Below are positions 2,421 to 17,575 of a DNA stretch of 45,657 bases, in pieces (positions within the stretch are counted from its first letter, which is position 1; each line of letters opens with the position of its first letter). The DNA comes from Lentimicrobiaceae bacterium (lineage in GTDB: Bacteria > Bacteroidota > Bacteroidia > Bacteroidales > F082): positions 1 to 45,657 of the forward strand of contig SUWU01000020.1 of the NCBI GenBank assembly GCA_015061295.1, read 5' to 3'. Both the position numbers and the translations under genes were made by a program. The notes under the pieces are model-generated. The model saw nothing but the letters and a program-made list of their open reading frames with translations. It was not told the origin of the DNA and did no database searches.

Positions 2421-2451
2421 TTGATTTGTATGATAAAAAATCATATTTTTG
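2421..2451 (+). promoter_or_regulatory. Promoter of the SusC-SusD-PNGase operon
   Basis: A -33 TTG at 2421-2423 is followed after 20 bp by a perfect -7 box, TATTTTTG, at 2444-2451. This matches the Bacteroidota housekeeping promoter layout. The box ends 34 bp before the ATG at 2486. It excludes the upstream in-frame ATG at 2426, which would lie inside the promoter. Confidence 0.65.
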
Positions 2452-2485
2452 CGTAGTTTTATTTTCGAAATTAAAATTATCAGAT

Positions 2486-5400
2486 ATGAGGAAGGTTTAC
2501 TTTTTCTTAATCCTTTCTTTCGGGTTTATTTTTACCTTGAAAGCTCAGGATTTCAATGTATCCGGTATAGTTACATCTTCTGAAGATGGATATGGATTAC
2601 CAGGTGTTACAATTTTAGTTAAGGGAACTACCAATGGTACTATTACCGGCATCGACGGTGATTATACCATTAAGGTGAACACTAACGACACATTATCTTT
2701 CTCCTATGTTGGCTATCAGACACAACATATTGCAGTCAAAGGTAAGACTAAGATAGATGTCGTCATGAGTACTGATGCTAAGATGCTTGATAATGTCGTT
2801 GTCACAGCGTTAGGTATCAAGCGTCAGAAAAGAGAGTTGGGTTACGCTACTGAGGACATCAGCGGTGCTGACTTGACACGTTCGGGAAGTGATAATGTTA
2901 TAAACTCGTTGAGTGGTCGTGCTGCTGGTGTGCAGATTATCACAAGCGACGGTGTGTCTGGTGGCTCGTCACGTATCGTTATCCGTGGTAATAACAGTAT
3001 CTTCGGTGATAACCAGCCGCTCATCGTCGTTGATGGTGTGCCGATGACTAACGAAGGTGGTGTTACCGGTTGGGACGGAGGACAAGACTGGGGAACAGCT
3101 CTTAACAATATCAACCAAGAAGATATTGAAGACCTCAACATCTTGAAAGGACCTACTGCTGCTGCTCTCTACGGTTCACGCGGTGGTAACGGTGTCGTTC
3201 TCATCACAACGAAAAAAGGTAAGAAACAAAAAGGTCTCGGTATCAATTTCTCATCAACATATAAGTTGACAACACCTTATGGCTATCGTGATGTTCAGAA
3301 TAAGTACGGCGCTGGAGGTCCGGTCTCTTTTATGACACCGACTTTGACACAAGATGAGAATGGTAACTACATATATAGTGGTAACTATAACACTGATAAC
3401 GGTCCTGAAGGTGAGCCTACTAACACTACTTTCGGTTACTATGGTGGCGCAGTCTCGTGGGGTCCTGTCATGGATGGAACACATATGTTATGGTGGGATA
3501 GCACTATGAGATATTATTCTCCTCAACCAGACAACCTCAGCATGTTATATAAGAACTCTCACTCGTTCACAAATAATATCTCATTCCAAAATGCAGGAGA
3601 CTTCGGTTCTATCAGAGTGTCTGTCACCGATGACCGCTCAGATGCTATCATAGATAACTGTAACCTCAGACAAACGACATTCAACGTAGGTTCCTTGTTG
3701 AATATCTCTGAAAAGATCAAAGCTGATGTCTCTTTCACTTACTTAGATTATCATCGTCTTAACTCACCTGTTCTCGGTGAGTCATATAGTAACTTCAACA
3801 AAGGCCTTCTTTATAGCTGGCCAAGAAGCTGGCAAGGTATAGAGTCGTCATTATACGAAAATCCTGATGGCTCCATGATAGAGTGGGGTAACTATCCATT
3901 CCAATATATCAATTATAATACTTTCTGGACATTCTATAATAATAACACTACTCTCGACCGCGATAAGGCTTACGGTTCTTTACGTCTCACCTACGACATT
4001 ACCGATTGGTTGACATTGGCTGGTAAAGCAGCTCTTGATTTCTCCTTAGACCAATTTGAGACAAAGAACAAACCTACAGCTCCTGATGGCATGACAGGTG
4101 GTTACTACAAACAAAATCTCTCAAGAGATTATACCTTAGATGCCGACTTCCTTTTGACAGCTCATAAAGATTATATCTTCGGTTCTAATTTCAACGTGCG
4201 TTTCTCATTAGGTGGTGAACGTTATTACAGAAATATGTACGGTTTATGGGCAGGTACAGGACAATGGGCTTACGCTGGATTATATACCTTCAAAAATTAT
4301 CTCAGCGGTGCAGCTAATCCTCTCACTACTAATATGCTCCCTGATGAATCGAGATATGAGAAACAAGTCAACTCGTTGTATGGCTTCTTGAATGTGTCAT
4401 ACAGAAATTGGCTCTTCATGGACTTCACAGGAAGAAACGACTGGTCATCGACATTGCCTATGAATAACAACAGCTACTTCTATCCATCAGCTACAGTGAG
4501 TTTCATAGCTACTGAGGCTTTGAAAATCAACTGGGGCTTTATCAGCTTCTTGAAGTTAAGAGGTTCTGCTGCTATGACAGCAAGTGACGACAATCCATAT
4601 CAGTTAGACTTCACATATAACACAGGATCTTTCGGTGGTCAGTTGACAGCCACTCTGCCAACACAGGTGCCACCTATACAACTGAAGCCTCAACGTCAAC
4701 GTGCCTTTGAAGTAGGTATCGACATCGGATTATGGGATAAATTTAACATGGATGTCACATATTACGACATCTATTCTTGGGATCAGATCCTTGCTTCTCC
4801 TATGGCAGTGTCGTCAGGTGCATCAAGTGCTCGTATCAACACAGGTATTGTAACCAACAAAGGTATAGAGGCTATCATGAACTATAACGTGTTCCAAAAG
4901 TCAGATAGCTATCTCCAAATAGGATTGAACCTCGCTAGAAATACTAACCGCATCGTTGATTTAGGCGGCGCAGATATGTATATACTCTCTGAAGTGTGGG
5001 GCTCCAACGGTCCAGCTATCGCTGTTAAAGAAGGCGAAGAATATGGTACCATCTACGGCTGGGACTATGTCTATAGCATGGATGTTAACGGACAGACTGT
5101 AGGTCCATTCTATGACGAAAATGGTAACCCAATTCCACTTATCAATGAAGAAGGAACAGAATATCTTAAGACAAATCAACGTGTGCCTGTTGGCAACTGC
5201 GCTCCTTTAGTGACTGGCGGTGTCAACTTTAAATATAGTTATAAGAACTTCTCGTTATATGCCTTGATAGATGCTAAGTTAGGAGGTGAAATCTATTGTG
5301 GATCATACGTTATCGCAATGCAGACAGGACAAAGCAATGAGACATTGTATGAACGAGAAGGTAATGGACTTCCTCTCTATGACGCAGAAGGTAACTTCTT

Positions 5401-5800
5401 AGGCAACTACGGTGTTGTCCTCCCTGGAGTCTATGTCAACCCTGAGACTGGCGAGGCTACAACTAACGAAGAAGTGGTGCACTACTATTATAATTATATG
5501 CCTAACTTCGGCGGATGGGGCAACTACATCTCAACACCAGGTATCTTGAACAACACATGGATCAAAATGCGTGAGTTAACACTCAGTTACAACTTCCCTG
5601 AAAAGATATTAAAGAAACTTAAAGTGTTCCAAAACGCTTCTATCTCTATAACAGGTCGCGACTTGTTCTACTTCTATAAGTCATTGCCAGATAATATCAA
5701 CCCAGAAGGAACCTTAGGAACAGGTAATGCTCAAGGTCTCGAATACGGTTCATTCCCAATGACACGCTCATTTATATTCTCATTAAGATTTGGTATATAA
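2486..5800 (+). CDS. SusC/RagA family TonB-linked outer membrane transporter
   Basis: The 22-stranded outer-membrane channel of a SusCD pair, which takes up large oligosaccharides or peptides using TonB energy. The 1104-residue product starts with a signal peptide (cleavage after LKA, residue 20). It continues with a carboxypeptidase-D-like regulatory domain (FNVSGIVTSSEDGYGLPGVT onward), the SusC hallmark VVVTALGIKRQKRELGYA, and a plug domain with LIVVDGVPM and the GPTAAALYGSRGGNGVVLITT motif. A long beta-barrel follows, ending in the aromatic-rich SFIFSLRFGI. I start it at 2486 because the signal peptide begins there. The SusD gene starts 25 bp after its stop, and a PNGase F-like gene follows. 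No ECF sigma, anti-sigma or hybrid two-component regulator is next to it. The cargo is inferred from the PNGase neighbour only. Confidence 0.95.
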   Translation: MRKVYFFLILSFGFIFTLKAQDFNVSGIVTSSEDGYGLPGVTILVKGTTNGTITGIDGDYTIKVNTNDTLSFSYVGYQTQHIAVKGKTKIDVVMSTDAKMLDNVVVTALGIKRQKRELGYATEDISGADLTRSGSDNVINSLSGRAAGVQIITSDGVSGGSSRIVIRGNNSIFGDNQPLIVVDGVPMTNEGGVTGWDGGQDWGTALNNINQEDIEDLNILKGPTAAALYGSRGGNGVVLITTKKGKKQKGLGINFSSTYKLTTPYGYRDVQNKYGAGGPVSFMTPTLTQDENGNYIYSGNYNTDNGPEGEPTNTTFGYYGGAVSWGPVMDGTHMLWWDSTMRYYSPQPDNLSMLYKNSHSFTNNISFQNAGDFGSIRVSVTDDRSDAIIDNCNLRQTTFNVGSLLNISEKIKADVSFTYLDYHRLNSPVLGESYSNFNKGLLYSWPRSWQGIESSLYENPDGSMIEWGNYPFQYINYNTFWTFYNNNTTLDRDKAYGSLRLTYDITDWLTLAGKAALDFSLDQFETKNKPTAPDGMTGGYYKQNLSRDYTLDADFLLTAHKDYIFGSNFNVRFSLGGERYYRNMYGLWAGTGQWAYAGLYTFKNYLSGAANPLTTNMLPDESRYEKQVNSLYGFLNVSYRNWLFMDFTGRNDWSSTLPMNNNSYFYPSATVSFIATEALKINWGFISFLKLRGSAAMTASDDNPYQLDFTYNTGSFGGQLTATLPTQVPPIQLKPQRQRAFEVGIDIGLWDKFNMDVTYYDIYSWDQILASPMAVSSGASSARINTGIVTNKGIEAIMNYNVFQKSDSYLQIGLNLARNTNRIVDLGGADMYILSEVWGSNGPAIAVKEGEEYGTIYGWDYVYSMDVNGQTVGPFYDENGNPIPLINEEGTEYLKTNQRVPVGNCAPLVTGGVNFKYSYKNFSLYALIDAKLGGEIYCGSYVIAMQTGQSNETLYEREGNGLPLYDAEGNFLGNYGVVLPGVYVNPETGEATTNEEVVHYYYNYMPNFGGWGNYISTPGILNNTWIKMRELTLSYNFPEKILKKLKVFQNASISITGRDLFYFYKSLPDNINPEGTLGTGNAQGLEYGSFPMTRSFIFSLRFGI

Positions 5801-5812
5801 TAAAATGATGAT

Positions 5813-5817
5813 GGAGG
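5813..5817 (+). promoter_or_regulatory. Shine-Dalgarno-like GGAGG deciding the SusD start
   Basis: GGAGG lies 8 bp before the ATG at 5826. Strong Shine-Dalgarno sequences are uncommon in Bacteroidota. This one picks the lipoprotein start at 5826 over the in-frame ATGs at 5790 and 5805-5811. Confidence 0.5.
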
Positions 5818-5825
5818 AAATAATT

Positions 5826-7526
5826 ATGAAAAAGAATAATATTAAATATGCTCCCGTAACGTTAGCCATTATCGTATCATTGATGTTGGCTTCATGTACT
5901 AAAGGCTTCGAAGAAATGAATAAAAATCCGATGAGCCCTACAGGTACAGACATAGGACCTCTGTTCAACGGTGTAGTGAGTAGCCTCGTATGGACATGGG
6001 ACGAACAGTTCTATCTCAATAACGAGATATTTTATCCTGAGTCGGAACTCGGAGCCCTTATCTCAGAGGCTTGGGGTAACTATAGCATCGGTGTCGATGC
6101 AGTGTGGAATAACTACTATTCAGCTCTCGCCAATATTCACGACATCGACAAACGTTTAGATGAAATGTGTACAACAACAGGTGACAATGAAATAGATGAT
6201 AAAGTTAGAGCTCAACTTATAGTGATAGAAGCTTTTAAGACTTTCAAAGTTACCGATATGTTCGGCGATATACCTTATTCCGAAGCTGGTTATATCTGGT
6301 ATAACACCGAGAGCAACAGAAAACCTAAATACGATTCTCAAGAGTCGATATATAAGACATTGTTGAATGAATTGGTGTGGGCAAGAAATGTCTTAAATAA
6401 CAACGCAGCCAGAACATCGTTAGGTAATATGTATTATTCATTGGAATCTTATGATGTGATGTATCATAATGATTACGGCAAATGGGCTAAGATAGCTAAC
6501 TCCTTGATATTACGTCACGCCTTGAGAATGTATGACAAAGATCCTGAATTTGCAGGAGCGTTGTTACAAGAGGCATATGATAGACCTGTCATCGATGATT
6601 ATTATTATGGCGGTAATGGTGGCTTCGCTCTATGGCCTCAATATTTAGGAACAACAATTGGCGATGAAGGATGGTCGTTTAGAGAACATAGAAACCTTAG
6701 AATGGGAGAGACTGTCTTTGCACAGATGTCGAAACCTACAGATAATGATGAGAATGAGATATTCGACCCAAGAGTGTATGTGTTCTTCGATACAAGTCAT
6801 AAAGACTCATTACATCCTGAAGGAGCATGGAGAGCTTATCCTCAGATTAAGGATCTCACAACACCTACAGAAGGTGGAACACCTTACTCCTCATCGAGAG
6901 ATAAAAATTATACTTTCAAAGGTCCTCAATGTCTCTATTCTCCATTTAACTTCTATCTCATCAGAGACAATGTCTTCGTACCTCAGATAATGATGAGCCC
7001 AGCTGAAGTGTGTTTCATCAAAGCAGAACTCGTATTGAGAGGCATAGTGAATGGCTCTGACTTCGACATCACCAACTATATAAGCAAAGGTGTGGAAAAC
7101 TCATTGTCTTTGTGGATGCAACTGCCATATAACGGAACCGACGTCACCTACAAGTATATATACAATGACTTGGCAAACCTCATGCAAGATAAAGATATAT
7201 ACTCATTCGCTTATTCTCATTCGGCTAATATCTTGAATGAACAAGCATTCAATAATCCTGACTTCGGTTTCACCCCTGATGAATATCTTGAGATAGTATA
7301 TCAACAACGTTGGCTCGACTTGTTCCGTCAACCTAATGAAGCATGGAACCTCGCACGTCGCACGTTTAAAACTCCTACTACAACAGATCATCAGAAACTC
7401 GTCTCATATAGATTGCCATATCCACAGTCGGAAGTGACATATAACTATGACAACTACAACGAGCAAGTTAAGAAGATGAGTCATGGCGATACACGACAGA
7501 CTAAGGTGTGGTGGATGGAAGATTAA
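5826..7526 (+). CDS. SusD/RagB-like surface nutrient-binding lipoprotein
   Basis: The lid and binding protein that pairs with SusC on the cell surface. The start at 5826 gives a lipoprotein signal (LMLASC, lipidated Cys24) and a 566-residue product. KNPMSPTGTDIGPLFNGVV and the TPR-like helices (for example YWLD-type stretch YQQRWLDLFRQPNEAW near the C-terminus) point to the SusD-like_2 / SusD-RagB superfamily. The gene overlaps no other real gene. It lies 25 bp after SusC and 19 bp before the PNGase gene, so the three are almost certainly co-transcribed. Glycan or peptide specificity cannot be read from sequence. Confidence 0.93.
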   Translation: MKKNNIKYAPVTLAIIVSLMLASCTKGFEEMNKNPMSPTGTDIGPLFNGVVSSLVWTWDEQFYLNNEIFYPESELGALISEAWGNYSIGVDAVWNNYYSALANIHDIDKRLDEMCTTTGDNEIDDKVRAQLIVIEAFKTFKVTDMFGDIPYSEAGYIWYNTESNRKPKYDSQESIYKTLLNELVWARNVLNNNAARTSLGNMYYSLESYDVMYHNDYGKWAKIANSLILRHALRMYDKDPEFAGALLQEAYDRPVIDDYYYGGNGGFALWPQYLGTTIGDEGWSFREHRNLRMGETVFAQMSKPTDNDENEIFDPRVYVFFDTSHKDSLHPEGAWRAYPQIKDLTTPTEGGTPYSSSRDKNYTFKGPQCLYSPFNFYLIRDNVFVPQIMMSPAEVCFIKAELVLRGIVNGSDFDITNYISKGVENSLSLWMQLPYNGTDVTYKYIYNDLANLMQDKDIYSFAYSHSANILNEQAFNNPDFGFTPDEYLEIVYQQRWLDLFRQPNEAWNLARRTFKTPTTTDHQKLVSYRLPYPQSEVTYNYDNYNEQVKKMSHGDTRQTKVWWMED

Positions 7527-7545
7527 TAACTAAATTTTTATCGAT

Positions 7546-10107
7546 ATGAAAAGATTATTTTTAACATTATCACTGATTCTGTGCTTGACAGCTATCAACG
7601 CACAAGTCGAATATGTCGTTAATTTCAATAATTATTCGACAGGAGAAAAATGTCTTGATGGACAAGACAACTGGTCAACACACTATCAAACAGCTGGAAC
7701 CTCGCCTGACTTTGATGTAGATTACACTATAGGTGGTCTCTTGTCGCCAGATGAAAGTATCGCTGTCTTCTATCCTTACGGCGGTCCTGGCGTCGGTAGA
7801 ACTGCAACACGTAAAGCAACAGATAACTTCAACTTCAATTTCCAAGATGGCGGCATCATCGATTTTGAGTTTGATATGTATCCTGCATGGTGGGGAACAT
7901 ATGCTGGTGTCGGTCTTGACGCTGATGGCGATGGTAATATCCTCGTCGGTATGACAGAAGGCGATGGTGGCGTGACATTGAGAGTGGCAGGTAGCGGCAA
8001 CGAGAATCACCCTAATATCACACTCCCTGATGGAACCGACATCTTAGTATCAAACTATAAACAAGAGAACTGGGCAAGATATAAAATGTCTTTCGACTTC
8101 TCCGCTTTCGATGGCGCTGGTTCTTTGACAGTATTCGTGAAAGACTTCAACGGAACAAGCTGGGGCGAATGGATGCAGCTTGCTGAAGTTACAGAAGTCA
8201 ATATGGGTCTAACACCTGGTTCACAAGATTATAAAGACAATCAGATGTGGGATGCTATCTTCTTCCACTGCCAAGGTGGTACTGGTGGTTTCGACAATTT
8301 CTTAGTCCGTCAGATGCCTGAAGGTAATATGCAATATATCACTCTCGCCGACATACCTAAGCAGTTAATCATTAACCCTCCTTATACCTTAGAAGCAACA
8401 ACAACATCAGGACTTCCTGTGTCTTTCGAAATAGTAAGCGGTCCAGCTACAATAGATGGTAACGTTATGACACTCACAGGTGAGGTCGGAACAGTGATAC
8501 TCAAAGCTACTCAAGCTGGCGATGACACATGGCTCCCTGCTCCTGACGTGGTGAAGACCTTCGAAGTGATAGACCCTATGGCTTACTCTCCAGAGATAAA
8601 AGTACGTCGCCCTTATGACGCTACAAACGTTTATCTCCCTAACTTGAAACCTATAATATTAAATGTCAGCCTTCAGATAGAACATGCCGACGCTCTCCTC
8701 TTTGAAGAGGTGAAATGTACTATAGACGGTGAAGAAGTGTTGTTATCAACAGACTTCCCTAACGACCCTGAAAACGGATACTTCTATGCCTATTGGACTC
8801 CTTCTCGTTATGGAGAACATACTATGACAACTTCGATTACTACCTCTGGAGGTAAAGTGACAGAAGCAATAACATCTTTTAATATCACTAATGAATATGA
8901 TAACGTCGATGTGACAGCTTTCAACGGCGACCTTCAATGTACACCAACAATACATTCGGCACAAGGTGAATATGTCTTCCCTACACACGTGGGTGCCTTC
9001 AACGAAATAACAGCTTATTATGACCATAACTGTATCAATGGTGATTGTGACCCTTACGACCGCGTAGGTGGCGTTAAGATAAGAGACTATCGCGGCAATT
9101 GGATGGAACTCTATCGTTATACAACTCCTTTCGGTATTGAATGTGAGGATAATGTCGATGTTACCGACTTCACTTCTTTATTGCAAGGTCTCGTAGAGTT
9201 TGAACTTTATTTCGAGTCATGGGACGGAAGCGGTTATCAGCCAACATTGTCTTTCAATATGGTTAAAGGTACTCCTGAATATTTATACGTCGATGTTGAA
9301 GAAGTATGGTTCAATACTTATGCCTTCGGCGATTATGCCAACTTACAACCTGTTCCAAGGGTAGATTATAGCTTCAACGAACAAACTCTTGCAGCAAGCC
9401 TGAAAATCATAACATCAGGACATAACTGGAGTAGTAACACAAGCCCTAACTATACCATCAACACTGGTAATGCAGCTGAGTTCTACGAAGCTACTCACGG
9501 AGTGAAAATCAATAATGAACATAAGTTTGAACAACATCTGTGGAGAGGCTGTTCTCCTAACCCAGCAGAATGTCAACCACAACCAGGTACATGGTACAAC
9601 ACTCGCTCTGGATGGTGCCCTGGCTCAATAGTGATGGTATGGGACTACGATTTGTCGGAATATATTAAAGACGAAACTATCAATATCTTCTACGAGTTCG
9701 ATCCTACTTATGTTGACTTATGTCACCCTAACCACCCTGACTGCGTGACAGGACAAAATGGATGCCCTAACTGTGAGGCTCCAGATAACCCAGTGTTGAG
9801 AGTGTCAGGTAAAGTGCTATCATACGGTAATGAAGTGGAAGTGTTTGAAAATGAAACATCAATAGAGGAAATACCTTCATATAACGTAGAGTTCTTCCCT
9901 AACCCAGCTCATAATAATGTAAGATTCTCTTCCGATTATGAAGATGGTAAGTTGAGTGTTCTTATCCTTAACGCTAACGGACAAGAAGTGAAGAAGTTCA
10001 CCTTCAGCGGCAGCAAAACCGTTGATGTCTCCGACCTCACAAGCGGAGTATATTTCGTCAAGATATTAGGAAACACTATGACAACAAAGAAACTCGTTAT
10101 CAGATAA
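7546..10107 (+). CDS. Peptide-N-glycosidase F-like protein with T9SS sorting domain
   Basis: Predicted to cleave the bond between Asn and the first GlcNAc of N-glycoproteins. The 853-residue order is: signal peptide (LTAINA, cut near 19-20); a beta-sandwich, LamG-like region to about 265; an Ig-like segment (about 270-345); a second beta domain (about 345-445); a PNGase F module (about 454-740); and a T9SS type A sorting domain (about 776-853, with FFPNPAHNN and GVYFVKIL). The catalytic module aligns with Elizabethkingia PNGase F by motif: DCDPYDR (Asp505, for D60), ELYFESW (Glu557, for E118), NAAEFYEATH (Glu645, for E206), KGTPEY, and GWCPG (689-693). All three key acids are present. The Cys pair flanking E206 in PNGase F is replaced by Ala and Tyr. 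It is the last gene of the SusC-SusD operon, before a strong terminator. The assignment rests on remembered family sequence, not on a search. Confidence 0.9.
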   Translation: MKRLFLTLSLILCLTAINAQVEYVVNFNNYSTGEKCLDGQDNWSTHYQTAGTSPDFDVDYTIGGLLSPDESIAVFYPYGGPGVGRTATRKATDNFNFNFQDGGIIDFEFDMYPAWWGTYAGVGLDADGDGNILVGMTEGDGGVTLRVAGSGNENHPNITLPDGTDILVSNYKQENWARYKMSFDFSAFDGAGSLTVFVKDFNGTSWGEWMQLAEVTEVNMGLTPGSQDYKDNQMWDAIFFHCQGGTGGFDNFLVRQMPEGNMQYITLADIPKQLIINPPYTLEATTTSGLPVSFEIVSGPATIDGNVMTLTGEVGTVILKATQAGDDTWLPAPDVVKTFEVIDPMAYSPEIKVRRPYDATNVYLPNLKPIILNVSLQIEHADALLFEEVKCTIDGEEVLLSTDFPNDPENGYFYAYWTPSRYGEHTMTTSITTSGGKVTEAITSFNITNEYDNVDVTAFNGDLQCTPTIHSAQGEYVFPTHVGAFNEITAYYDHNCINGDCDPYDRVGGVKIRDYRGNWMELYRYTTPFGIECEDNVDVTDFTSLLQGLVEFELYFESWDGSGYQPTLSFNMVKGTPEYLYVDVEEVWFNTYAFGDYANLQPVPRVDYSFNEQTLAASLKIITSGHNWSSNTSPNYTINTGNAAEFYEATHGVKINNEHKFEQHLWRGCSPNPAECQPQPGTWYNTRSGWCPGSIVMVWDYDLSEYIKDETINIFYEFDPTYVDLCHPNHPDCVTGQNGCPNCEAPDNPVLRVSGKVLSYGNEVEVFENETSIEEIPSYNVEFFPNPAHNNVRFSSDYEDGKLSVLILNANGQEVKKFTFSGSKTVDVSDLTSGVYFVKILGNTMTTKKLVIR

Positions 10108-10130
10108 CATTCTCGATAACATATATCACA

Positions 10131-10168
10131 AAAAAGTCGGTTCCTTTCAAAGGAACCGACTTTTTTTT
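10131..10168. terminator. Bidirectional intrinsic terminator
   Basis: GTCGGTTCC and GGAACCGAC form a perfect 9-bp stem around a TTTCAAA loop. The stem is flanked by six A on the left and eight T on the right, so it has a U-tract in either direction. It ends the SusC-SusD-PNGase operon rightward and probably the atp operon leftward. Confidence 0.9.
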
Positions 10169-10260: not shown

Positions 10261-11136
10261 TTATCCTTTCAAGGCTTCGGCTCCGCTGACAATCTCTACA
10301 AGCTCGTTGGTGATGGCACTCTGACGAGCTTTGTTGTATGTTAAGTTAAGTTCTTTTAACAACTCAGTGGCGTTGTCGGTGGCTTGTGTCATAGATATCA
10401 TGCGAGCTCCCTGCTCCGAAGTATAGCTGTTTAATAATATCTTATATACTTTCAACTTCAACGACTTAGGTATCATCTCGTCTATAATGTCTTCTCTATT
10501 GGGTTGGAAGATGTAGTCCGACTCTGACTTTTGGGCTGTTGGCTGTTGGCCATTGTCCTGTTGTCTCATAATCGGCAGAAACTGTTCTGTGACTAAGATC
10601 TGTGTCGCGGCATTCTTGAATTGGTTATAGATAAAAACTATTTTATCATATTTCTTATCTTCAAAATCTCTCATCAATTTCTCGGCAAAAGGAATGACAT
10701 TATTATAAGTCAGATTGTCGAGCAGTTCATTCTCATTGCCTATGACAGGATATTTCTTGAATTTCAACGACTCTTCCACCTTAGAGCCTACACATAGAAT
10801 ATCAACCTTGTCGCTATCAAGCAATTCCTTATATTCTTCTTGTAAGTGATTTATTGTAGCGCGAATGACGTTGGCATTAAACACCCCACAAAGTCCTTTG
10901 TTAGATGAAACGGGAATTATCAGAGTTCTGCCACTCGTCTGTGTCTGTGTCAGTGTCTGTGTCTCACTCACTCTCATCATTATCTCCTCCATTTTCTCGG
11001 CGTAAGGCTGAAGTGCAGTGATGGCGTTCTGTGACTTACGTAGCTTCGATGCTGCCACCATCTTCATGGCGCTGGTAATCTGCTTGGTGGAGTTTACCGA
11101 CTCAATCCTCGTTCTGACTTCTTTGAGATTTGCCAT
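10261..11136 (-). CDS. atpG: F-type ATP synthase gamma subunit
   Basis: The central rotor shaft of F1. The 291-residue product begins with the family N-terminal helix (KEVRTRIESVNSTKQITSAM) and ends with the C-terminal helix containing NKARQSAITNELVEIVSGAEAL. It also has the SSNKGLCG motif in the Rossmann-like middle. It is the last gene of the atpB-E-F-H-A-G operon, 2 bp after atpA. Two in-frame repeat-derived segments are unusual. A 6-bp array encodes the TQTLTQTQT stretch (about residues 55-66) just before the GLCG domain. A 7-bp array encodes NGQQPTAQ (about 194-201) in a loop region. Both fall in loops that vary among gamma subunits, so the rotor helices are not interrupted. Confidence 0.97.
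   Translation of the reverse strand: MANLKEVRTRIESVNSTKQITSAMKMVAASKLRKSQNAITALQPYAEKMEEIMMRVSETQTLTQTQTSGRTLIIPVSSNKGLCGVFNANVIRATINHLQEEYKELLDSDKVDILCVGSKVEESLKFKKYPVIGNENELLDNLTYNNVIPFAEKLMRDFEDKKYDKIVFIYNQFKNAATQILVTEQFLPIMRQQDNGQQPTAQKSESDYIFQPNREDIIDEMIPKSLKLKVYKILLNSYTSEQGARMISMTQATDNATELLKELNLTYNKARQSAITNELVEIVSGAEALKG
10535..10555 (-). repeat. 7-bp array inside atpG (GCTGTTG units)
   Basis: Three 7-bp units of the AGCCAAC/GTTGGCT family. Read on the atpG strand they give the peptide QQPTA, the same word as in the RNase H (15647-15702) and FeoAB (30890-30945) arrays. Confidence 0.8.
10937..10972 (-). repeat. 6-bp array inside atpG (GTCTGT units)
   Basis: Six 6-bp units (GTCTGT with variants) are read in frame on the atpG strand as alternating Thr-Gln. 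The 6-bp period keeps the reading frame. Confidence 0.85.
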
Positions 11137-14255: not shown

Positions 14256-15347
14256 ATGTTCTTCCTTCGCTGCCATTCCAAAATATATTGCCGACAACAG
14301 CGTAAACACATATGCTTGGATGTAAGCGACAAGCACTTCCAACACATCGGCGAATACTGCTAACAACAACGATAACACCGACATCGCTCCGCCTGCGGCT
14401 GCGCTCATCTCTCCTAAGATAAATATCATACATATAAACCCAAGTACAACGATATGTCCAGCGGTGATATTAGCAAACAAACGAACAGCCAAGACAAAAG
14501 GCTTGATGAAACAGCCTACGACCTCTATAATAGGCATCAACGGCAACGGCACCTTGAGCCACCACGGCACTCCCGGCGTGTTGAAGATGTCTTTGTAATA
14601 ATGTCTCTTTCCAGTGATGTTAGTGATGAAGAAAGTAAATAAAGCAAGTACGGCAGTGACTGCTATGTTACCTGTGATGTTAGCTCCAAAAGGAAAGAAT
14701 GGTATCAATCCTAAGAGGTTGTTAAAAAATATAAAGAAAAACACCGTCAAGAGATACGGAAGGTATTTCTCATAATCTTTGCCTATGTTGGTCTTTGCTA
14801 TATCGTCGCGCACAAATATGATAAGAGGTTCGAGGAGAGCTTGAATGCCTTTTGGTGCTTTCTCTTCTCTTTGACGGTAGCCTCTCGCTACAAGAAGGAA
14901 GACTATCACAAGAAGACTGCATGAGATAAATATCCCACAGACAGTCTTGGTGATGGATATGTCGAAAGGTTTGAGCATCGTGCCATCGTCCATCATCCTA
15001 ACAACCTTGCCCTCGTATCTGCCTTCTTCAGCAATGGCAAAACATACATCATTACCTTGTCTGTCTTTAACATGATGATGCCCATGATGAAGATGACGCG
15101 AAGAGAAACAATATAATTCCCCTTCACTGACTACTATTATCGGAAGATATATGGAGATGTGTCTGCCTTTCCATGTACATATATGCCAATCGTATGAGTC
15201 GAGGATGTGATCAAAGATAAGTTCTCCCGCATTAAACTTCTCCTCAACAGTTTCTATCTCTTCCTCTACGACATTAATATCATTACAATAGATATTGTTG
15301 TTAGTCAGTAGAATTGAGAAAATAAAAAACAAAATATATTTCTTCAT
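14253..15347 (-). CDS. atpB: F-type ATP synthase a subunit
   Basis: The Fo stator channel. The 364-residue protein has the long N-terminal extension seen in Bacteroidota atpB: a signal-like segment (MKKYILFFIFSILLTNN), then a soluble His-rich region (HLHHGHHH). The membrane domain follows, with the essential Arg in LAVRLFANITAGHIVV and the YIQAYVFTLLSAIYFGMAAKE C-terminus. It is the first gene of the local operon and is divergent from the RNase H gene across 134 bp. No perfect TAnnTTTG box was found for it; TAAATTTTG, one base too long, is the nearest. atpD and atpC, which precede atpB in many Bacteroidales, are absent here. Confidence 0.97.
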   Translation of the reverse strand: MKKYILFFIFSILLTNNNIYCNDINVVEEEIETVEEKFNAGELIFDHILDSYDWHICTWKGRHISIYLPIIVVSEGELYCFSSRHLHHGHHHVKDRQGNDVCFAIAEEGRYEGKVVRMMDDGTMLKPFDISITKTVCGIFISCSLLVIVFLLVARGYRQREEKAPKGIQALLEPLIIFVRDDIAKTNIGKDYEKYLPYLLTVFFFIFFNNLLGLIPFFPFGANITGNIAVTAVLALFTFFITNITGKRHYYKDIFNTPGVPWWLKVPLPLMPIIEVVGCFIKPFVLAVRLFANITAGHIVVLGFICMIFILGEMSAAAGGAMSVLSLLLAVFADVLEVLVAYIQAYVFTLLSAIYFGMAAKEEH

Positions 15348-15469
15348 GTCGTATCAGCACATAATTAAAAAAGATATGCAATTCTACAAAATTTATCAAC
15401 ATAATTGCAAATGAAATATTAATTTTTTCAAAAAAAATAATCTTGCTGATAATGATTTAAAATCTTTAT

Positions 15470-15477
15470 TACTTTTG
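15470..15477 (+). promoter_or_regulatory. -7 box of the RNase H gene
   Basis: TACTTTTG matches the TAnnTTTG consensus and ends only 4 bp before the ATG at 15482. Transcription would therefore start at or next to the start codon, suggesting a leaderless mRNA. Confidence 0.6.
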
Positions 15478-15481
15478 CATC

Positions 15482-16102
15482 ATGGCAAAAGGTAAATTTT
15501 ACGTAGTTTGGAATGGCCGAAATGTCGGTGTTTACAGCGATTGGGACTCTTGCAAGATGCAGATAGAAGGTTTCAAAGGGGCTCAATATAAATCGTTTCC
15601 CGACAGGGCAAGCGCAGAAGATGCTTTTAGAAATGGATATGAAGCAAGCCAAAAGCCAATAGCTAACAGCCAACAGCCAACAGCCAATAGCCAACAGCCA
15701 ATAGGTCAGAGTATCGCTGTTGATGCAGCCTGTTCTGGTAATCCTGGCAAGGTGGAATATCAAGGTGTTTTTGTTGAGACAAAGACACATCTTTTTAAGA
15801 GCCCTGTCTTTGAAGGAGGCACCAACAACATAGGTGAGTTCCTTGCCATTGTTCATTGTCTTGCATGGCAACAAAAGAAGAAAATCTCTTTTCCAATATA
15901 TTCCGACTCTCTTAATGCGCAGAAGTGGGTTAGGGAAGGAGTGTGTAAGACGAAATTGGTGGAGAATGAGAAGAACAAATATCTCTTTGAGGTTATACGA
16001 CGTGCTGAGAAGTGGCTTAAAGAGAATAGCTTCAGAGTGCCGATATACAAATGGAGGACAGATATATGGGGAGAGATCCCCGCTGACTTCGGAAGAAAAT
16101 AA
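15482..16102 (+). CDS. Ribonuclease H with N-terminal viroplasmin-like domain
   Basis: Degrades RNA in RNA-DNA hybrids. Residues 1-48 are a caulimovirus viroplasmin / RNase H N-terminal domain (MAKGKFYVVWNGRNVGVYSD), which binds hybrids. A linker (about 56-75) is made from a 7-bp DNA repeat. The RNase H domain (about 77-206) carries the acidic residues of the DEDD site: AVDAACSGNPG, NNIGEFLA, YSDS and the C-terminal TDIWGEIPADFG. The Asp-Glu-Asp core is visible, so it is likely active. The start at 15482 fits the family N-terminus exactly and sits 4 bp after a -7 box. The next gene follows after 9 bp. Confidence 0.95.
   Translation: MAKGKFYVVWNGRNVGVYSDWDSCKMQIEGFKGAQYKSFPDRASAEDAFRNGYEASQKPIANSQQPTANSQQPIGQSIAVDAACSGNPGKVEYQGVFVETKTHLFKSPVFEGGTNNIGEFLAIVHCLAWQQKKKISFPIYSDSLNAQKWVREGVCKTKLVENEKNKYLFEVIRRAEKWLKENSFRVPIYKWRTDIWGEIPADFGRK
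15647..15702 (+). repeat. 7-bp array in the RNase H linker (AGCCAAC units)
   Basis: Eight consecutive 7-bp units of AGCCAAC and near variants. Because 7 is not a multiple of 3, three units encode one seven-residue word, read here as SQQPTAN repeated. The unit has no stop codon in any of the six frames. Confidence 0.95.
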
Positions 16103-16111
16103 TATAATGTC

Positions 16112-16870
16112 ATGATAAAATTCGATACTTTCTATATACAATGTCCACGATGTCACTCTTGGATGGAAGGACATCTCCTCATATCATCGATGGTTAATCA
16201 GTCGATATTATATTCTGATGGTAAGATACTTAATGATGGTTATATCACTGAGAATCAGAAGATGATAATATGTCCTGCCTGTAATCATTGGTCGTGGATT
16301 GAAGAATATAAGGAGCCTATCATAACAAGAGAGAAGCCAGAAGAGACATATTACACTTGGAACAGCTGGCGTTTTTATGGGATACATTTTGAAAGCAACG
16401 AAGGTCGTTTAGCTCTCGTCAATCATTATAAACATTTTCTTCAGAAATCGGATTATGGCATCGACCAAGAGATATATTTTCGCCGTATGATTTGGTGGGC
16501 TTACAACGATTTGATAAGAAATAAATACTTGGCAGATATTCACTATTACATCTCTAAGGAGATGAGTTTCAAAGTATGGAAGAGAAATAGGGAGAAATTG
16601 ATGAAGGGATTGACGTTGTTCACTATGTATCATCATGATTTTATGGAGAACCTCTATCGTTTGGTGTTCCTCTTAGAACGTCGTTATACTCCCGATGATG
16701 AGGAGTATGAAAGCACAAGTCTCGATATTATAGAGATCTATCGTCAACTTGGCGACTTCGGTAAAGCAAAAGAGTTGTTAGATAATACCACGCGTAGGAC
16801 TTTCTTCATCTCTGCGATAGAGAAGAAAGTCAATGCTAAAGATGACTACGTCTTCTTAGTCACGGGCTAA
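16112..16870 (+). CDS. Uncharacterised protein with N-terminal zinc ribbon (CpXC-like)
   Basis: I do not recognise a named family for the whole protein. The 252 residues begin with a probable zinc ribbon: CPRC at about 11-14 and CPAC at about 61-64, with the beta-rich segment between them resembling CpXC-type ribbons. The rest is helical and rich in Trp, Tyr and charged residues (for example RRMIWWAYNDLIRNKYL). It ends with a TPR-like stretch (IIEIYRQLGDFGKAKELLDN). There is no signal peptide or membrane helix, so it is probably cytoplasmic. It follows the RNase H gene by 9 bp, probably in the same transcript, and its 3' end overlaps the convergent tcdA gene by 15 bp. A DNA, RNA or protein-binding adaptor role is possible but not shown. 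Confidence 0.8.
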   Translation: MIKFDTFYIQCPRCHSWMEGHLLISSMVNQSILYSDGKILNDGYITENQKMIICPACNHWSWIEEYKEPIITREKPEETYYTWNSWRFYGIHFESNEGRLALVNHYKHFLQKSDYGIDQEIYFRRMIWWAYNDLIRNKYLADIHYYISKEMSFKVWKRNREKLMKGLTLFTMYHHDFMENLYRLVFLLERRYTPDDEEYESTSLDIIEIYRQLGDFGKAKELLDNTTRRTFFISAIEKKVNAKDDYVFLVTG

Positions 16871-17575
16871 TATGCTGTTGATGACATGGGAGGCGCAGAA
16901 GCAACCGAATATAGCAGGCATATATGATATTGTTCCAACAGTAGCTACTTTGTTGTCGGTCTGTTCTTCTTCCACTGTCACAGCCTTGTCGGCCACTTTC
17001 TCAGGTGAGAAGACAACAGTGATGCCTTCGCGTACTCCAAGACGATGAAGTCTTTTTCTTATATAAAAAGCCAATCTACAGTTATACGACTTCGAAATGT
17101 CGGCGATCTGTATCATTTCTGGGTTGAACTTACCTCCTGCTCCCATGCAGCTGACAATATTTTGTTTGTTCTGAACAGCATAATATAAAAGGAAGACTTT
17201 AGGTGCTAAGGTGTCGATGGCATCGACAACGAAGTCGAAAGGTTGTTCCATAAGATCTATGATAGGCTGATCTTTAAGATACTGATTTATGGCGACGACT
17301 TCCACATCGGGGTTTATGTCGCGGATACGTTCTGCCATGACATCTACTTTCGCTCTTCCAATGGTGCTGTCGAGTGCAAGAAGTTGTCTGTTCTTGTTGG
17401 TGATATTGACAGTGTCGCTGTCGATGATAGTCATTTTGCCTATACCAGCACGTGCCAGCTGCTCAGCAGCATAAGCTCCAACACCTCCTAATCCCACCAC
17501 GAGAACATGTGAGTTTCTTAACTTGTTGACACCTTCTTCTCCAACTAACAATTGTGTCCTTGAATACCATTCCAT
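16856..17575 (-). CDS. tcdA: tRNA threonylcarbamoyladenosine dehydratase (TcdA/CsdL), ThiF superfamily
   Basis: An E1-like enzyme that uses ATP to cyclise t6A37 of ANN-decoding tRNAs to ct6A. The 239-residue protein shows the family start (YSRTQLLVGEEGVNKLRNSH), the nucleotide-binding GLGGVG loop (28-33), the NRQLLAL segment that follows a conserved Asp, and VVDAIDTLAPK. The C-terminal SYMPAIFGCFCASHVIN agrees with the family. It is the last gene of a leftward operon. Its start lies 31 bp inside the 3' end of the TatD-type gene, in another frame, which suggests translational coupling. Confidence 0.92.
   Translation of the reverse strand: MEWYSRTQLLVGEEGVNKLRNSHVLVVGLGGVGAYAAEQLARAGIGKMTIIDSDTVNITNKNRQLLALDSTIGRAKVDVMAERIRDINPDVEVVAINQYLKDQPIIDLMEQPFDFVVDAIDTLAPKVFLLYYAVQNKQNIVSCMGAGGKFNPEMIQIADISKSYNCRLAFYIRKRLHRLGVREGITVVFSPEKVADKAVTVEEEQTDNKVATVGTISYMPAIFGCFCASHVINSILARD

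Follow-up and report, generated by a model that had tools for sequence, protein, structure and literature searches.

The window analysed here, a stretch of 45,657 nucleotides of contig SUWU01000020.1 from a Lentimicrobiaceae bacterium (GCA_015061295.1), carries a three-gene operon in which a SusC-type TonB-dependent transporter and a SusD-type lipoprotein (the SusCD pair) are followed by a PNGase F-like amidase with a type IX secretion system (T9SS) sorting tail and an N-terminal lectin-like domain. To judge from its sequence, the unit probably cuts sugar chains from proteins at the cell surface and imports a product. Capture and use of the N-linked glycans of glycoproteins is, on balance, slightly more likely than not the role of this cassette, the evidence being operon anatomy, homology, model folds, conserved synteny and co-occurrence. 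The three genes are encoded on the same strand, separated by 25 and 19 bases, with a promoter-like site ahead of them and a terminator hairpin behind, as a preliminary description of the stretch had set out, and from this spacing a single transcript is inferred. No further gene of the window appears to be part of the unit; within the window the three genes have neither a surface glycan-binding protein nor a sensor-regulator among them or as a neighbour, a regulator elsewhere not having been sought. With a SusCD pair and at least one co-encoded enzyme predicted to act on glycans, the unit falls within the definition of a polysaccharide utilisation locus (PUL), although it is a minimal locus and not a typical PUL, Bacteroides PULs usually having both of these further components.

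The third gene product belongs to the PNGase F superfamily, as was first proposed from sequence. The C-domain profile PF09113 matches with 38.1 bits over a cut-off of 25, while the N-domain profile PF09112 remains at 15.7 bits, under its cut-off of 22.4, so that the suggested check against both profiles succeeds for the C domain only. A phmmer alignment with PNGase F (3pms_A, E 6.6e-31, residues 470-717) nevertheless spans both domains, with 28% identity across the aligned core. Similarly, the catalytic part models as PNGase F, with two predicted eight-stranded beta-sandwich domains side by side. The protein is closer to type I PNGase F than to PNGF-II (4R4X, 4R4Z), a member of the same superfamily whose N-domain profile, PF22252, finds no match in it.

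The three acids originally named as catalytic, Asp505, Glu557 and Glu645, fall on D60, E118 and E206 of PNGase F by sequence alignment. As a diagnostic set they hold in part. Among 129 full-length relatives (from 172 copies found, minus three of fewer than 780 residues and 40 whose last 600 residues duplicate those of another copy) D505, H626 and E645 are each invariant (129/129), whereas position 557 varies (92 E, 28 Q, five D, three V and one T); E557 was thus rejected as a hallmark of activity. SusCD-linked copies retain E557 in 52 of 56 cases (two V, one Q, one T), copies labelled unlinked in 37 of 70 (27 Q, five D, one V) and contig-edge copies in 3/3. These labels derive from a simple reading-frame caller: at L095 an antisense frame hides SusD and its two PNGases are labelled unlinked, and at L185 such a frame hides the PNGase itself, leaving that copy outside the 172. 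At the neighbouring position 506, 93 of the 129 copies have R and the other 36 have H. According to a comparison of ten PNGases, three elements are widely conserved, namely an aromatic-Asp-basic/aromatic motif, a His that is Trp in PNGase F, and a Glu, and the region around C3 of the core N-acetylglucosamine (GlcNAc) varies (PMC12381499); E118 of PNGase F is reported as what blocks core alpha1,3-fucose (PMC9522356). At the sequence level the invariant D505, H626 and E645 agree with the former description. It is very improbable that the PNGase F-like domain has another substrate or activity and that its name overstates it: the modest identity to the PNGase F core, the poorly modelled loop 627-642 preceding E645 (pLDDT < 50) and the variation at 506 and 557 would suit such a view, but the motif, the His and the Glu shared broadly by PNGases (PMC12381499) are all present. 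The homology, the fold and the three invariant residues favour N-glycan capture as the role of the cassette.

The C-terminus of the amidase carries a type A sorting domain (TIGR04183, cut-off 23), in line with the export route first suggested, and GldL, the sole machinery part searched, is over its cut-off in the genome, which places the protein among predicted T9SS type A cargo. The tail, GldL and the 67 T9SS-tailed reading frames over cut-off in the window genome argue for glycan release at the cell surface. The preliminary description, right on the genes, the homology, the acids, the tail and the link to SusCD, had missed the N-terminal domain. Residues 19-261 are modelled as a legume-lectin-like beta-sandwich of the L-type lectin kind, and D125 and D129 of its DxDxD-like loop are invariant in alignment A2.

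The link between PNGase and SusCD, initially drawn from gene order, is supported by the survey of relatives. The survey covered gene order along 136 stretches, with some contigs represented twice and most flanking genes lacking a domain scan, and found 41 distinct SusC-SusD-PNGase loci in which one to four consecutive PNGases occur. Their upstream neighbours sort into two main groups, one of 12 and one, RadA-like, of 10, besides smaller sets, and their downstream neighbours into groups of 9 (class II aminoacyl-tRNA synthetase, checked in L049) and 8 with many singletons. The unit is thus kept although its surroundings differ. A FastTree tree of the 129 copies resolves one large clade of 56 copies (support 0.997) and one of 71 (support 0.851), with 25 and 30 SusCD-linked members, respectively, and the most distant copy (L058, from another family of the order) is also SusCD-linked. 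In the other families of the order, represented by 24 genomes, G038 has full-length matches, G055 a match over residues 236-852 and G040 a fragment; G038 (L027) and G055 (L058) display the SusC-SusD-PNGase order, and the cassette is thus found in three families, counting two beyond the window's own. Most named relatives are metagenome-assembled genomes from herbivore guts, rumen and horse among them, and some bear the name Candidatus Limimorpha. Conservation through varied flanks, both clades and two other families is a further argument for N-glycan capture. Of the three outcomes that the preliminary description named as refuting, none was seen, as a profile matches, the modelled catalytic part has the PNGase F fold and related genomes keep the gene neighbourhood. 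Among variants of the arrangement, L028 (6478-17018) and L098 have four PNGase genes in a row after one SusCD pair, the three later PNGases of L028 having D-H and not D-R at 505-506, and L027 has two tandem SusC-SusD pairs ahead of one PNGase.

SusCD systems are usually numerous in gut Bacteroidota, and it is difficult to assign their cargo. In the window genome (93.7% complete) the window SusC is the sole one over the TIGR04056 cut-off, the other 11 matches reaching at most 82.1 bits with all 14 candidates scored, a fact beyond the reach of the preliminary description. Across 40 genomes of the genus, 28 have one SusC over cut-off and 12 have none, the best 15 candidates being scored in many of them, which does not strictly exclude a second copy. 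A PNGase directly follows SusD in 23 of the 28 (the G019 copy is cut by a contig end) and lies 3.4 kb beyond SusD, behind two genes, in G007, while in G003 and G010 the contig ends inside SusD. The two genes intervening in G007 (L185:7253-10106) encode an AAA/DUF4143 protein and a 251-residue unknown protein, perhaps an insertion; in G012 (L193) an N terminus of similar look, unscanned, lies ahead of the PNGase. In the 36 genomes covered for both genes, SusC and PNGase are both present in 26, both absent in nine, and the PNGase occurs without SusC in one (G014, 460 contigs) and SusC without PNGase in none (Fisher p 1.1e-7, a value that ignores kinship). The single SusC and this co-occurrence favour the same role.

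In the mechanism proposed, the PNGase would cross the outer membrane via the T9SS and stay on the surface, as its sorting tail and GldL suggest, and its lectin-like domain may hold the sugar of a glycoprotein while the PNGase F domain would hydrolyse the GlcNAc-Asn bond. By operon logic the freed oligosaccharide would be bound by SusD, drawn through SusC and trimmed by exo-enzymes coded elsewhere. The free glycan is the PNGase product that could be imported without further proteolysis, which favours it as cargo. The statement that only an amidase is present is true of the operon alone; the genome encodes on other contigs one GH92, three GH20 matches (one full, two partial) and one GH2 glycoside hydrolase (GH) as well as two further PNGases. 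GH92 and two of the GH20 proteins lack a T9SS tail and begin, by eye, like lipoproteins. These exo-enzymes, taken with the lectin-like fold, argue for glycan use, as does their distribution: GH92 and GH20 each occur in 39/40 genus genomes and GH18 in 0/40 (control positive in 6/14).

The second T9SS PNGase (L019:7761-11909, contig C18) is 53% identical, has Q at position 557 and stands directly after a T9SS-tailed M28 peptidase and a LUD-domain protein. A T9SS-tailed gene ahead of the PNGase recurs in L022, L106, L107 and L113-L116, where those neighbours are unscanned. The third PNGase, on contig C44, is close to PNGF-II (E 6.2e-131), with an ordinary signal peptide (by eye) and no T9SS tail; enzymes of this type are found at E < 1e-100 in 30/40 genus genomes, nine of these lacking a SusC over cut-off. 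On C44 the PNGF-II-like gene lies about 4 kb from a GH20 lipoprotein-like protein (L002:8838-10586 and 14701-16995), preceded immediately by a Fic-domain gene and, on the opposite strand at a distance of about 1.2 kb, by an S9 peptidase.

A precedent for this route is the Gpd operon (PUL5) of Capnocytophaga canimorsus, gpdC-gpdD-gpdG-gpdE-gpdF, which likewise places an N-glycan-freeing enzyme after SusC-SusD, includes a concanavalin A-like module and leaves later degradation to periplasmic exoglycosidases (PMC3128124). In contrast, Gpd as described there releases glycans by an endo-beta-N-acetylglucosaminidase on a surface lipoprotein, whereas the window enzyme is a T9SS-tailed amidase with its lectin-like module fused to it and without GpdE/GpdF-like genes. 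By analogy the cassette would work like Gpd, with an amidase replacing the endoglycosidase, but it is not Gpd. No endo-beta-N-acetylglucosaminidase is found in the window operon and the genome has no GH18 match, the GH85 catalytic profile not being searched. A PF21910 (GH85_C) match in T9SS cargo L153 was dismissed as a chance match, being located inside a fibronectin-type stretch.

The window SusC scores 565.7 bits with TIGR04056 (cut-off 368.25) and matches the CarboxypepD, plug and barrel domains of the SusC/RagA family, and the SusD matches PF12771 (144.2 bits) and PF12741 (134.6 bits) over a cut-off of 27, has a lipobox (by eye) and adjoins SusC. Its evidence on glycan versus peptide cargo is neutral.

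Several observations weigh against N-glycan capture. The closest solved SusC is Bt2264 (251.7 bits), in whose structure oligopeptide is present, followed by 8aa4_A (142.1), 5t3r_D (133.4), which we take to be the levan importer Bt1763, and RagA of Porphyromonas gingivalis (118.0). GH92, GH20 and the PNGF-II-type PNGase do not track the cassette, because they are also present in SusC-less genomes. Among the T9SS cargo are an S8, an M28 and three C25 peptidases, and in the 29 cargo proteins scanned, mostly as C-terminal parts of about 570 residues, no catalytic domain of a glycosidase was found. In G002 and G012, two of the 28 SusC-positive genomes, another gene follows SusD. Finally, a single event among related genomes may account for the co-occurrence, because eight SusC-less genomes carry PNGF-II copies at near-equal identity (67-68%) to that of the window genome and look like one clade. 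This last point would also suit a neighbourhood of PNGase and SusCD due to chance or shared ancestry alone, a scarcely credible account given 41 distinct loci with differing flanks, two PNGase clades and three families of the order; the nine genomes without SusC and this PNGase type, moreover, also lack the PNGase paralogues remote from SusCD.

The cargo scan drew on 30 of the 67 T9SS-tailed frames, taken as short loci, the window's own being the one not scanned, and recovered C25, S8 and M28 peptidases and adhesin domains; eight proteins were read at full length, three tandem C25 among them (gingipain-like, with T9SS tails, at L203:850-10723 on contig C20). These peptidases are in keeping with a possible, if unlikely, RagAB-like role, in which SusCD imports peptides and the surface PNGase strips sugar shields so that C25, S8 and M28 enzymes can cut glycoproteins, the sugars being a by-product. 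The M28 gene beside the C18 paralogue and the failure of the glycosidases to track the cassette point the same way, RagAB is described as serving a proteolytic species (PMC11817032) and the Bt2261-64 structure contains an oligopeptide (PMC7782687); the sequence nearness of the window SusC to Bt2264 is, as a sign of peptide cargo, suggestive only. Both RagAB and Bt2261-64 are SusCD pairs like that of the window but, in the accessible text of these sources, have no adjoining PNGase gene described.

Import of glycopeptides, with the surface PNGase acting on part of them and the tail-less PNGF-II-like enzyme finishing in the periplasm, is improbable. Periplasmic PNGases acting on imported glycopeptides have been suggested (PMC9522356) and the C44 protein would fit such a place, but the presence of this enzyme type in the nine genomes without a SusC over cut-off indicates that it does not depend on this importer. 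A further proposal, which we would rate as rather doubtful, makes the single SusCD of the genus a dedicated glycoprotein-feeding port: surface lectin-PNGases would strip sugars, gingipain-like proteases and SusCD would harvest peptide or glycopeptide in a RagAB-like economy coupled to N-deglycosylation, and PNGase paralogues and arrays of up to four would diversify at 506 and 557 for different core-fucose types.

SusCD loci for N-glycans, T9SS PNGases and one PNGase neighbourhood with only SusC/D, that of Bacteroides sartorii, are already known. The last shares with the window the SusC/D pair as sole neighbours (PMC9522356) but is not treated as a conserved unit in the accessible text; the two Bacteroides PNGases tested there have a predicted type I signal peptide and periplasmic location, although the authors keep surface location as an option, and an NBL domain is found in most group 2 enzymes, in contrast to the T9SS tail and lectin-like domain found here. 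PNGaseDo (Draconibacterium orientale) and PNGaseL (Flavobacterium akiainvivens), likened here by description and not by sequence, are T9SS-tailed members of the superfamily, PNGaseDo with three extra beta-sheet modules (PMC12381499); most of the six genes treated there are orphans and the accessible text describes no SusCD link for these two. In the open-access literature, supplements excluded, PMC9522356 and PMC12381499 alone bore on a T9SS PNGase next to SusCD, and no cassette was met that has a T9SS-tailed lectin-PNGase as its sole enzyme, is kept as a unit and provides the one SusC of its genome; absence from print is not claimed. A genus in which 28/40 genomes have one SusC over cut-off, placed immediately ahead of a PNGase in at least 23, offers a clean test case for SusCD cargo and for whether PNGase action serves sugar or protein supply. 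The many natural variants of the lectin-PNGase could be useful for glycoprotein analysis, and the cassette points to uncultured Bacteroidales of herbivore guts as users of glycoproteins from host or feed.

Table 1 Features of the SusC-SusD-PNGase unit, in window coordinates
Feature	Position	Strand	Basis
Promoter-like site, TTG-N20-TAnnTTTG, about 35 bases 5' of SusC start codon	2421..2451	+	mainly position
SusC-type TonB-dependent transporter, 1104 aa	2486..5800	+	TIGR04056, TIGR04057, PF13715, PF07715, PF00593
SusD-type lipoprotein, 566 aa	5826..7526	+	lipobox LASC (by eye)
PNGase F-like amidase, 853 aa, with T9SS tail and N-terminal lectin-like domain	7546..10107	+	profiles, phmmer, model
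Predicted concanavalin A/L-type lectin-like beta-sandwich, residues 19-261	7600..8328	+	
Beta-strand stretch, probably immunoglobulin-like modules, residues 262-451	8329..8898	+	model secondary structure only
Predicted PNGase F catalytic double beta-sandwich, residues 452-774	8899..9867	+	
D505, aligned with catalytic D60 of PNGase F	9058..9060	+	phmmer alignment; D in 129/129 relatives
E557, aligned with E118 of PNGase F	9214..9216	+	phmmer alignment; variable in relatives
E645, aligned with E206 of PNGase F	9478..9480	+	phmmer alignment; E in 129/129 relatives
Type A T9SS C-terminal sorting domain	9895..10104	+	TIGR04183 50.3 bits, PF18962 51.3 bits
Intrinsic terminator hairpin with T tract, between convergent genes	10130..10166	+	folding

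The promoter pattern, presumably a Bacteroidota-type consensus, occurs twice in the window against 0.81 expected by chance, and the call therefore rests on position and not on rarity; a sigma-70 scan of the window (30 sites against 22.9 in shuffles) was uninformative. The terminator hairpin has a folding energy of -22.9 kcal/mol (z -7.4) and was located by reading and folding, the same scan not listing it. On the 5' side the unit is bordered by a RadA-like gene on the opposite strand, named by eye from its sequence, and on the 3' side by a convergent ATP synthase operon, whose atpG ends at 10261 on the other strand. Elsewhere in the window, the protein encoded at 28274-30583 matches the SusC profile TIGR04056 weakly, with 82.1 bits and under the cut-off; it is probably another TonB-type receptor, beside which no SusD was noticed.
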